From Woeseiaceae bacterium (GTDB lineage: Bacteria; Pseudomonadota; Gammaproteobacteria; Steroidobacterales; Woeseiaceae), in contig JAPKEL010000007.1 in the NCBI GenBank assembly GCA_028822065.1, positions 1 to 64,000 on the forward strand: a stretch of DNA of 64,000 nucleotides. The letters run 5' to 3'. The position numbers and the translations under genes are program-made. This document shows positions 11,320 through 15,591 of the stretch, piece by piece. How positions within the stretch are numbered: position 1 is the first letter of the stretch; each line of letters begins with the position of its first letter. The notes below the pieces were generated by a model. It was not told the DNA's origin. It was given only the letters and a program-made list of their open reading frames with translations, and searched no databases.

Positions 11320-11334
11320 ATTAAAATCTCACTT

Positions 11335-12264
11335 CTAGATTTTTGAGTTAATAATTGACATAACATTCTTACCATCCAAATCAACAGGGATTGTACTTGT
11401 AGTATTCCGGAGCCATGTAATTTGTCTTTTTGCGAGTTGCCTGGTTGATGCTTGCGCTTTTTTTGTAGCTTCCTCAATGGTGATGAGATCGTCAAGATAA
11501 GCCCATATTTGACGGTAACCAACCGCTCTCATTGAAGAATGATCTGATGTTAAATATTCTCTTTGTTTTAATAACTGTACTTCTTGAATAAAGCCTTCAT
11601 CTAACATTCTCAAAAATCGAGCATTGATTCTTTGATGAATTTCTAAGCGTGAATGGTGATTAATGGCAAATTTTATAAATCGATAATCATTATTTTTGTT
11701 TTTCCTGGATTGCCAATCTGTAATATTGCGACCACTTAACTCAAACACTTCTAATGCTCTTTGGATACGCTGACTATCATGCGGATTAATTTTCTTTGCT
11801 GCGATATGATCTATATCAGCTAATTTATTATGCATTTCAGGCCAACCTATTAGTTTAGCTTCAGTGTTGATAATGTTTCTAATATTTTTATCGCCCTCAG
11901 GGAGATCAGATAGACCCTCTATCAGAGCATGAAAATATAACATTGTCCCACCAACTAATAATGGAATTCTGCCATCGTTATGAATACGTTTAATTTCTAT
12001 ATTTGCATCTTTAATAAAATTACCAACAGAATATGACTTCTCTGGATCTAAAATATCAATTAAACGATGCGGAAATTGATCAAGAGTTTCCTTTGATGGC
12101 TTGGCCGTCCCTATGTCCATACCTCGATATATTTGAGCGGAATCAACATTAATTATATCCAAGGGGAATTCTTTTGAAAGCTTTAAAGCCAGCTCAGTCT
12201 TACCTGAAGCGGTTGGGCCCAAAAGACAGATCACAGGTAAATCAAAATAACGATTAGAATTCAT
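11335..12264 (-). CDS. miaA: tRNA dimethylallyltransferase MiaA
   Basis: Transfers a dimethylallyl group to N6 of A37 in tRNAs that read codons starting with U. The P-loop GPTASGKTELAL is near residue 16-27. The substrate-binding SAQIYRGMDIGTAKP is near 42-56, and PLLVGGTMLYFHALIEGL is near 100-117. The 309 residues are typical. It follows amiB after a 23-bp gap, with no mutL in between. Confidence 0.96.
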   Translation of the reverse strand: MNSNRYFDLPVICLLGPTASGKTELALKLSKEFPLDIINVDSAQIYRGMDIGTAKPSKETLDQFPHRLIDILDPEKSYSVGNFIKDANIEIKRIHNDGRIPLLVGGTMLYFHALIEGLSDLPEGDKNIRNIINTEAKLIGWPEMHNKLADIDHIAAKKINPHDSQRIQRALEVFELSGRNITDWQSRKNKNNDYRFIKFAINHHSRLEIHQRINARFLRMLDEGFIQEVQLLKQREYLTSDHSSMRAVGYRQIWAYLDDLITIEEATKKAQASTRQLAKRQITWLRNTTSTIPVDLDGKNVMSIINSKI

Positions 12265-12287
12265 AGGGATAAAAAAAAATTCTCATA

Positions 12288-13604
12288 CTAGTAATACAAA
12301 GGAATTTGCAATGTTTGTCCTATCTTGATATTACTGCCATTGATTTGATTAAATCTTCGCAGCACAGACAAACTGATACTGTATAGATCGGCAATCTCAC
12401 TGAGAGTATCACCCCGTCTAACTATGTAACTAATGGTTCTTGATTGATTCTGTAGATTCTTTGCAAACTTAGTTTCCTCAGGAGGGTTAACCAAAAAATA
12501 ATTACGAACTCCCTTCAAAATAGCGTTCGCTAGTTTATTCTGAAAATTTCTATCTTTTAATTTCTTCTCTTCATTAGGATTGGATATATATGTTGTCTCA
12601 ATAAGAATAGAAGGTACATCGGGAGATTTTAGTACAAGCAAGCCAGACTGCTGTACTTTCTTTTTACGTATAGAGCTAACGCGAGATAATTCCGTTAACA
12701 CAAATTCACCAATCTCCAAACTCGCCTCATTGGTAGCGCCTTGAGACAAATCCATCATAAGCGAAGCAAACGAGTCATCTTTACCTGATAAAGATACGTC
12801 ACCAATTGAAATATCCTCATTCTCACGTTTAGCTAAACGCTTAGAAGCCTCATCAACTGCCCCTTTATCTGACAATGTATATATTGAGGCGCCTCTAACA
12901 CGAGGATTATTATCCAGAGCATCAGCATGAATTGAGACAAATAAATCGGCTTTGCGCTCTCTTGCAATTTCCATTCGATCTCTCAAAGGAACAAAACTAT
13001 CACCACTTCGAGTTAAAAAAGCACGCATATCTTGCGTCTTGTTAATTTGTTCTGCCAGCCTTTGACTCACTGCTAGTGCTACAACGCTCTCCCATGTACC
13101 ATTTGGTCCTATTGCCCCGGGGTCTTTTCCACCATGACCTGGATCTATAACTATTCTAATATCTCGTAGAAGGTCAGATGAAACCTGATTTTGAGATAAT
13201 TTAGAAGAATTTTCAGGAAAACTTATATCAACCACCATTCTTGTATTTTGAGTTTGATTGCCTGGAATCATAAAATGTGTAAATTTAGTTATTCTCGCTA
13301 CATCCAAAACAACTCTCAATGCTTCTTTAACGCCCCCACCAAAACGAATATCGCGAATAAAATTATTCTGTAAATTATCTTTTTTAATTGATTTTGATAA
13401 AATTGTGTTTTCTAAATCAATCACTAATCGATGTGGATTTTGTAAGGAGAATACGTGAGTATTGACGTTTGAATCTAAATCTAACACCAATCTAACTTGA
13501 TTATTATGTTTTGCCATACGGACATCTTTAAGCAATGCCGCAGACCAACTATGGGTGACCATAAAATATAAAGCACAAAAAAGGCCTATTCGTTTTATAA
13601 GCAT
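12288..13604 (-). CDS. amiB: N-acetylmuramoyl-L-alanine amidase with AMIN and LysM domains
   Basis: A periplasmic zinc amidase that cuts peptide stems from peptidoglycan during cell separation. After a signal peptide (about 1-23) come an AMIN localisation domain (about 25-125), an Amidase_3 catalytic domain (about 150-375) and a C-terminal LysM module (about 394-437, YIVRRGDTLSEIADLY). Zinc ligands are seen in IDPGHGGKDPGAIG (His), WESVVALAV (Glu) and SIHADA (His); the catalytic glutamate lies in LIETTYISN. Activators of such enzymes include NlpD, which is also encoded in this window (55917-56600). Confidence 0.94.
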   Translation of the reverse strand: MLIKRIGLFCALYFMVTHSWSAALLKDVRMAKHNNQVRLVLDLDSNVNTHVFSLQNPHRLVIDLENTILSKSIKKDNLQNNFIRDIRFGGGVKEALRVVLDVARITKFTHFMIPGNQTQNTRMVVDISFPENSSKLSQNQVSSDLLRDIRIVIDPGHGGKDPGAIGPNGTWESVVALAVSQRLAEQINKTQDMRAFLTRSGDSFVPLRDRMEIARERKADLFVSIHADALDNNPRVRGASIYTLSDKGAVDEASKRLAKRENEDISIGDVSLSGKDDSFASLMMDLSQGATNEASLEIGEFVLTELSRVSSIRKKKVQQSGLLVLKSPDVPSILIETTYISNPNEEKKLKDRNFQNKLANAILKGVRNYFLVNPPEETKFAKNLQNQSRTISYIVRRGDTLSEIADLYSISLSVLRRFNQINGSNIKIGQTLQIPLYY

Positions 13605-13620
13605 CGATTACTTTCTTTAT

Positions 13621-14109
13621 TTACTTGATTGCATATTTATTTTGATAAAATTTACGAACCTTTGAAAGTATATCATCACCAACTAATGACGATGATTTAA
13701 TTGTAACCTCACGCCCCGATTGTTTAAAGTTTATAGTAAAATTGATATCCGCTTGTTCTGATATTGTTGGAATTCTTTGTGGCCATTCGATAAACATTAA
13801 ACCATCACTTAAATCATCCCACCCAAGAAAATTAAGCTCATCATGATCATTAATTCTATATAGATCAATATGATATATTTTTCTAAAGCCAAACTCATAA
13901 GGCTCTATTAGAGTATATGTTGGGCTGGGTACGATATCTTCATATCCCATACCTCTGAGTACCGCACGAACGAGCGTTGATTTACCTGCACCCACCTCAC
14001 CGCTCAGTGTTATGGTAATTCCAGATAGAACTTGGGGAAGGGCCCTAGATAATTGCTTTCCTAACTCCTTGGTAGCTTGCTCATTTGGTAAAGTTATATC
14101 GAAATTCAT
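13621..14109 (-). CDS. tsaE: tRNA threonylcarbamoyladenosine biosynthesis ATPase TsaE
   Basis: The ATPase that supports TsaB-TsaD in making t6A37 on ANN-decoding tRNAs. Walker A GEVGAGKSTLVRAVLRGMG is at about 37-55, and SPTYTLIEPY near 64 and HIDLYRI near 79 are family motifs. The 162 residues are normal. Its ATG overlaps the TGA of the broken nnr fragment by the ATGA pattern, a relic of the usual nnr-tsaE coupling. Confidence 0.94.
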   Translation of the reverse strand: MNFDITLPNEQATKELGKQLSRALPQVLSGITITLSGEVGAGKSTLVRAVLRGMGYEDIVPSPTYTLIEPYEFGFRKIYHIDLYRINDHDELNFLGWDDLSDGLMFIEWPQRIPTISEQADINFTINFKQSGREVTIKSSSLVGDDILSKVRKFYQNKYAIK

Positions 14110-14300
14110 GGATGATTGCAGTCTCTAATATTTTCAATTAAATCGCCAGCTAAAAATCGAAACTGGTATTTACCATCAACTTTATTACTAGCTATAGTGT
14201 GTATTCCAATTGCCATTATCGTCGCTTAGAAATATTAACTTCAATCTTATAATAGCCTAGCTATTATAACTGCGTATGTATGACCCATACCAGCTGAAGC
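14106..14300 (-). pseudogene. nnr: Decayed 3' remnant of nnr (NAD(P)H-hydrate dehydratase/epimerase)
   Basis: Reading the minus strand from 14300 in a single frame gives ASAGMGHTYAVIIARLL, then four stop codons within eight positions, then ATIMAIGIHTIA and later FLAGDLIENIRDCNHP and a TGA at 14108-14106. The first part matches the dehydratase-domain core ASAGMGDVLxGIIAxLL of Nnr. The last part matches the Nnr C terminus (GLLASDLIxxIR), and the spacing between them is right. The TGA overlaps the tsaE ATG. Nnr normally sits directly before tsaE and repairs hydrated NAD(P)H. Only about 65 codons remain recognisable, and the catalytic aspartate in GMGD is now His. Confidence 0.75.
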
Positions 14301-14520
14301 GAAAAAATATCTATCATATTCTTAATTTAAAAAATCTTCCTTATCTTTAGAAAAGAAAATTATCACTCTTCTCATTGAAAGATAACCATCTTCTTTTTTA
14401 CTGATTCATAACTATGGATTCATCGCTTCTTCATATAGCGGAATAAATATATATTCATTGTTATAATTGAATCTAAATTATTAATCACAAAACTATTATA
14501 CTAGCCCTTGTGGATGATTA
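14301..14520. other. Non-coding stretch between queG and the nnr remnant
   Basis: Together with the nnr remnant this makes the only gap over 300 bases in the window (14110-14520). I see no open frame and no clear homology here. It is very AT-rich and probably holds the queG promoter plus unrecognisable nnr sequence. A perfect 10-bp inverted repeat with a 3-base loop lies in the neighbouring remnant at 14247-14269 (TTATAATAGC/GCTATTATAA). Confidence 0.6.
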
Positions 14521-15591
14521 ATGGTTATGAATAAAAGTAACATAATAAATAAAAACAAACTTGCCAATGATATAAAGCTGTGGGGCAAAGATCTTGGTTT
14601 TCAAGAAATAGGTTTCACCAACATAGATCTATCCAAAGCTGAGAAAAATCTGAAGAAATGGCTCGATATGAAATTCCATGGAGAAATGTATTATATGGAG
14701 AAGCATGGCCTCAAAAGAAGCAGGCCAGATATTCTGATACCCAATACAATCAGCATTATATCTGCACGAATGGATTACCTTACAGCTAATGAAAAATCTA
14801 CAAAATCCCTGCTTGATCATCCCAAGAAAGCCTATATTTCTCGCTATGCCCTTGGAAGGGATTATCATAAGGTATTAAGACAGCGACTTAAGCGCTTAGG
14901 GGAGAAAATTGAAGCATCAATCAATAATTTCGGTTATCGAGTATTTGTTGATAGCGCTCCCGTTCTCGAGAAGCCATTAGCTGAAAAAGCCGGACTTGGG
15001 TGGATTGGGAAACACACAAATCTTATCGATAAAAAAACAGGTTCTTGGTTTTTTCTTGGTGAGCTCTACACAGATCTAGTTCTCCCTATCTCATCACCCA
15101 GTAAAGGGTATTGCGGCTCTTGCCATGAATGTATTGATGTTTGTCCAACACAAGCCATAATTGCTCCATATGTATTAGATGCAAGACGCTGTATCTCATA
15201 CTTAACCATTGAATTAAAAGGTTCAATTCCCCTAGAGTATAGGAAATTAATTGGTAATCGAATCTATGGTTGCGATGACTGTCAAATATTTTGCCCTTGG
15301 AATAAGTTTGCAAAGCAATCATCAATAACAGATTTCAATCCAAGGCATAAGCTTGAATCACTGGACTTAATAGAAGCATTCCTATGGAACGAGGAAACTT
15401 GGTTAAGAAAAACAGAAGGAAGCGCATTAAGAAGAATTGGATTTGAACAATGGTTAAGAAATGTGGCCACTGCATTAGGTAACGCGAAAAAAAGTAAAGA
15501 GATTGTGGCCGCACTTAATACAAGAAAAAATTCTGACTCCACATTGGTTAAAGAGCATGTTCATTGGGCTCTTGATCAGCACTCATCTTAA
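14521..15591 (+). CDS. queG: Epoxyqueuosine reductase QueG
   Basis: A cobalamin- and iron-sulfur-dependent enzyme that reduces epoxyqueuosine to queuosine at tRNA wobble position 34, the last step of queuosine synthesis. Two [4Fe-4S] motifs are visible: CGSCHECIDVCP from residue 198, and CDDCQIFCPWN near 250-260. The N-terminal domain has the conserved GFTNIDLS and YMEKHGLKRSRPDIL regions. The start ATG 14521 has GGA six to eight bases upstream; ATG 14527 is also possible. It is divergent from the nnr remnant and tsaE, the same arrangement as in E. coli. Confidence 0.95.
   Translation: MVMNKSNIINKNKLANDIKLWGKDLGFQEIGFTNIDLSKAEKNLKKWLDMKFHGEMYYMEKHGLKRSRPDILIPNTISIISARMDYLTANEKSTKSLLDHPKKAYISRYALGRDYHKVLRQRLKRLGEKIEASINNFGYRVFVDSAPVLEKPLAEKAGLGWIGKHTNLIDKKTGSWFFLGELYTDLVLPISSPSKGYCGSCHECIDVCPTQAIIAPYVLDARRCISYLTIELKGSIPLEYRKLIGNRIYGCDDCQIFCPWNKFAKQSSITDFNPRHKLESLDLIEAFLWNEETWLRKTEGSALRRIGFEQWLRNVATALGNAKKSKEIVAALNTRKNSDSTLVKEHVHWALDQHSS

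Follow-up and report, generated by a model that had tools for sequence, protein, structure and literature searches.

A remnant of nnr upstream of tsaE in a marine Woeseiaceae lineage

The queG-tsaE gap and the remnant in it

The window, that is, the whole stretch of 64,000 nucleotides analysed, carries queG on the plus strand and tsaE on the minus strand, divergently arranged around a gap of 411 bases whose minus strand lacks any gene-sized open frame. Beyond tsaE and an amiB-type amidase gene follow miaA, hflX, hflK and a gene for a second Band_7 protein. The features of this region, in window positions, are the following.

11320-11334, no strand: miaA/hflX junction of 15 bases, where relatives hold hfq (gene order)
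11335-12264, minus strand: miaA, intact (IPPT, PF01715)
12265-12287, no strand: amiB/miaA junction of 23 bases, where relatives in the family and order hold mutL (gene order)
12288-13604, minus strand: amiB-type amidase gene, intact (Amidase_3, AMIN, LysM)
13621-14109, minus strand: tsaE, intact (PF02367, 115.1 bits)
14106-14300, minus strand: C-terminal remnant of nnr, the end of the ADP-dependent NAD(P)HX dehydratase domain; 64 codons and a terminal TGA, with four internal stops (profile match, shuffles)
14106-14216, minus strand: tail of the remnant, free of stops and opening with an ATG past the last internal stop; 36 codons and the TGA overlapping tsaE, a putative coupling ORF
14301-14445, minus strand: stretch in which no similarity was detected, either to Nnr or to the gaps of relatives (profile and shuffle comparison)
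14446-14502, minus strand: conserved block with AGTATAATAG, putatively the former promoter and leader of nnr-tsaE; it is situated upstream of the divergent queG as well
14521-15591, plus strand: queG, intact and divergent (PF08331 and PF13484)

Translated in a single frame, the minus strand from 14300 to 14106 reads ASAGMGHTYAVIIARLL, stop, D, stop, S, stop, YF, stop, ATIMAIGIHTIASNKVDGKYQFRFLAGDLIENIRDCNHP, stop. The translation thus runs from ASAGMG to FLAGDLIENIR in the original frame of nnr into tsaE, and its four internal stops (14249-14247, 14243-14241, 14237-14235 and 14228-14226) all fall within eight codons. The terminal TGA (14108-14106) overlaps the ATG of tsaE (14109-14107). With four stops, and 411 bases where about 1,500 are needed, the open frame of nnr is destroyed.

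The remnant was compared with a profile of 89 non-redundant, near full-length Nnr proteins, obtained from 105 BLAST matches (loci fetched for the analysis) after removal of partial and identical ones. It matched the 62 columns 434-495 (of 497) without a gap, at 21.4 bits and a domain E of 1.3e-7. The runner-up among 30 translations (five gaps in six frames, stops read as X) reached -3.8 bits, and the highest-scoring other piece of the window, on both strands, 7.0 bits. When the rows of the genus were taken out of the profile, the remnant scored 23.1 bits and the intact end of the Nnr of a genus mate, G005, 84.9 bits. The remnant shares 19 of 63 residues with this G005 protein; the identities at the first, second and third codon positions (30, 43 and 23 of 63, respectively) bear the imprint of a past protein constraint. 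A score of merely 21.4 bits leaves room for the objection that the resemblance is due to chance and that the gap never contained nnr. However, the best of 2,000 dinucleotide shuffles, each read in three forward frames, attained 1.9 bits, the ungapped match ends correctly at the tsaE overlap, and in two genus mates (G003 and G005) this position is occupied by an intact nnr. The shuffles and the position rule out a chance match, the probability of which we consider negligible. The element before tsaE is a remnant of nnr; the in-frame fossil, with four stops and still overlapping tsaE, that had been proposed from the letters of this DNA is borne out by the translation and by its significant alignment to Nnr C termini.

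No comparable trace of the N-terminal end was detected with the profile, its scores around 14450-14405 being negative. By eye only, IYSA-like letters are seen at about 14450-14405 (KIYSS in G007), possibly a degraded N-terminal remnant.

The same locus in genus mates and the fate of the operon

The genus set comprised nine genomes, with the window genome as G000. In the two keepers, an intact nnr lies between queG and tsaE (502 codons in G003, 501 in G005; the proteins are 77-82% identical, depending on the count), and in G005 its stop overlaps the ATG of tsaE. In five genomes there is no place for the gene: the queG-tsaE gap measures 411 bases in G000, 307 in G004, 301 in G002 and 222 in G007, and the gap of G008 is identical to that of G007. 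These last two are near copies at the locus and were thus counted as one lineage. From G001 (81% complete) and G006 (65%) the locus was not recovered, as neither contained tsaE, amiB or a true queG match. The sister genomes thus have an intact gene in two cases and a short gap in four. This comparison also bears on the idea that an intact gene was broken by sequencing or assembly error, for which it speaks that G000 is a draft of metagenome type in 104 contigs. Against it stand the four stops, a gap of 411 bases against some 1,500 required, and four other assemblies (G002, G004, G007, G008) that are also short at the same place; the latter rule it out, and we judge such an error very improbable.

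The gaps of the other losers resemble the C-terminal remnant weakly: shuffles scored as well in 11 of 500 cases for G004, 18 of 500 for G002 and 207 of 500 for G007, so that homologous remnants in G004 and G002 are at most putative. For the stretch 14301-14445, the corresponding counts were 79, 102 and 490 of 500, so that no similarity was detectable in these three gaps.

Two further genes are missing from the operon. None of the nine genus genomes matched DNA_mis_repair (MutL) or Hfq, while MutL was found in 12 and Hfq in 13 of 15 other relatives, and relatives including G044, G040 and G014 hold nnr, mutL and hfq within about 7 kb of one contig. Most genus genomes are incomplete, and G004 (99% complete) and G000 (94%) weigh most in these absences. 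Because the keepers G003 and G005 are also without both genes, mutL and hfq were probably lost before nnr. The conserved operon would hence have eroded stepwise, losing mutL and hfq from the whole sampled genus and nnr from an inner clade only. A loss of mismatch repair across the whole genus may matter more than that of nnr.

Absence of Nnr and a putative lack of NAD(P)HX repair

The G000 assembly (94% complete, 104 contigs) and that of G004 (99% complete) gave no match to YjeF_N (PF03853), and the G005 Nnr used as query found nothing in the G000 contigs at E <= 1; with an intact sister Nnr as query, two of the nine genus genomes, G003 and G005, matched at this threshold. Carb_kinase (PF01256) gave two matches below cut-off in G000 (19.7 and 19.2 bits). 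As candidates for a second Nnr these were rejected, being PfkB-type kinases, one of them fused to a cytidylyltransferase domain. YjeF_N and Carb_kinase both above cut-off, taken as the mark of a functional Nnr, were not found in G000. A further nnr is thus absent from both assemblies, and the original prediction that the lineage may lack NAD(P)HX repair is upheld as far as repair by Nnr is concerned, which G000 very probably does not perform. A copy at an unrelated locus in the missing part of G000 is less likely, given that G004 is 99% complete. From the gene content we infer that the cell would perform no NAD(P)HX repair at all.

GAPDH is an enzymatic source of NAD(P)HX according to a published survey (PMC5938422). 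Gp_dh_C (GAPDH) was found in eight of the nine genus genomes, including G000 and G004, the one without it being G007 (65% complete). GAPDH has been kept, so the enzymatic source of the damage remains, and the possibility that the need for repair vanished with GAPDH is ruled out. A free-living marine clade with GAPDH and without Nnr could instead rely on an unrelated, unrecognised enzyme that repairs or removes NAD(P)HX; we find this unlikely, but if it were true, comparing genus mates with and without nnr could help to find that enzyme.

YjeF_N was present in 235 of 247 genomes of the order (completeness >= 90%), G000 and G004 being among the 12 without it. In the class, TIGR00197, a model of the N-terminal part, matched 214 of 276 genomes and left 62 without a match; the same model missed two of 14 control genomes. 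Genomes lacking the gene are therefore uncommon in the order, and in the class they are not rare. Since G009, one of the YjeF_N-less genomes, retains a partial dehydratase match, the 12 order genomes are not all losses. Of the more than 1,600 prokaryote genomes in the same survey, 1,248 carried both genes and 168 only the dehydratase (PMC5938422). Elsewhere in the order, in g24, a second genus with small genomes, one of two 1.4-Mb genomes (G048 and G505) lacks YjeF_N and the other keeps it, possibly another loss in progress. Within the family, G529 (genus g10, mostly 3-5 Mb), with 1.5 Mb, is also without YjeF_N.

Age and course of the loss

The age of the remnant was estimated by simulating the neutral decay of its profile score under simple models, and the fit was about 0.3 substitutions per site. 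Scores at least as high as observed were obtained in 95-97% of simulations at 0.2 substitutions per site, in 8-20% at 0.4 and in 1-4% at 0.5. For comparison, G000 and G004 agree at 45% of the fourfold sites of queG, equivalent to about 1.05-1.25 substitutions in total. Divided evenly between the two lineages, a total of about 1.1 amounts to some 0.55 on each, and nnr may then have died in G000 after the split from G004, a dating that unequal rates would blur. The QueG tree separates the five losers from the two keepers by a branch with 100/100 support (deeper forks are weak), so that a single loss suffices.

Parallel losses, with nnr dying in G000 after its split from G004 and G002 and separately in other lines instead of once in the ancestor, would fit a decay of about 0.3 per site set against the fourfold distance, and also the 1.3 to 3.7% of simulations, depending on the model, that retain the observed score at 0.5 per site. 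They would likewise fit the 62 remnant codons without an indel, while the gaps of G004 and G002 have lost much of the same stretch. Apart from the well-supported branch, what argues for one ancestral loss is that G000 has a short QueG branch (0.045 versus 0.089-0.099), which puts its share at about 0.35 per site and matches an ancestral death, the root and the intermediates being poorly sampled. Given this shorter branch, the death of nnr in G000 may date back to the split from G004. We hold parallel losses to be quite possible, if somewhat short of probable. The original prediction of a recent loss stands in part: the loss may postdate the G004 split, but the gene is absent from G002, G004, G007 and G008 too, and about 0.3 substitutions per site is old on the scale of species. 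A decay of this extent, together with the absence across the inner clade, indicates that this was not a strain-level event.

We consider it highly likely that this marine Woeseiaceae lineage has lost, by deletion and decay, the fused epimerase-dehydratase gene nnr, the first gene of an nnr-tsaE-amiB operon. One or more deletions would have removed some 1.1 kb from the body of the gene and left the last 64 codons as a non-coding remnant, which would have survived because they adjoin the start of tsaE. tsaE is essential, and the tail beside it was perhaps spared only since deletions into tsaE would be lethal. The driver would presumably be genome shrinkage with a deletion bias. A role for the tail itself, in which translation of the last 36 codons is coupled to that of tsaE, would agree with a stop-free tail of 39 codons and the retained ATGA overlap. 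Inspection by eye, however, showed no clear ribosome-binding site, G002, G004, G007 and G008 have not preserved this tail, and all the decay is compatible with neutrality; such coupling appears quite improbable.

The promoter-proximal block would also have survived the deletion, probably since the remaining genes of the operon depend on it. The AGTATAATAG-bearing (TATAAT) block at 14446-14502 is conserved across four lineages of the genus, whose gaps are otherwise not alignable. Over its first 40 nucleotides, it is identical to G000 at 34 positions in G004, 31 in G007 and, ungapped, 27 in G002, the low count in G002 arising because a 1-nt deletion shifts the block. The corresponding identities at queG fourfold sites are 0.45, 0.36 and 0.43. 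In G004 and G007, the block thus exceeds the fourfold sites, which suggests that it is constrained and may serve tsaE, queG or both. We infer that it is the operon promoter; a sigma-70 promoter scan listed four sites against 4.1 expected, did not include the TATAAT block and supported no standard sigma-70 pair, so the designation as promoter is a putative one.

A genus with both keepers and losers serves to date and document how a metabolite-repair enzyme was lost from cells that retain GAPDH, the source of the damage, and offers a natural comparison for when NAD(P)HX repair becomes dispensable. A brief literature search yielded no publication on the loss of nnr in pelagic Woeseiaceae. The type of event, the loss of a gene from a shrinking genome, is known and fairly ordinary.

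Compared with the intact queG-nnr-tsaE locus of G005, which encodes the Nnr/YjeF fusion of NAD(P)HX epimerase and dehydratase, the remnant has the same place, the same frame, the same C-terminal motifs (ASAGMG and AGD) and the same stop/start overlap. It differs from the intact fusion in lacking the epimerase domain at the N terminus and the greater part of the dehydratase domain, with four stops interrupting the rest. Pseudogenes and deletion remnants are a known class in reduced bacterial genomes. The nnr remnant resembles them in its in-frame sequence with stops, in the clade-wide absence of the whole gene and in the small genome, and there is no difference of principle.
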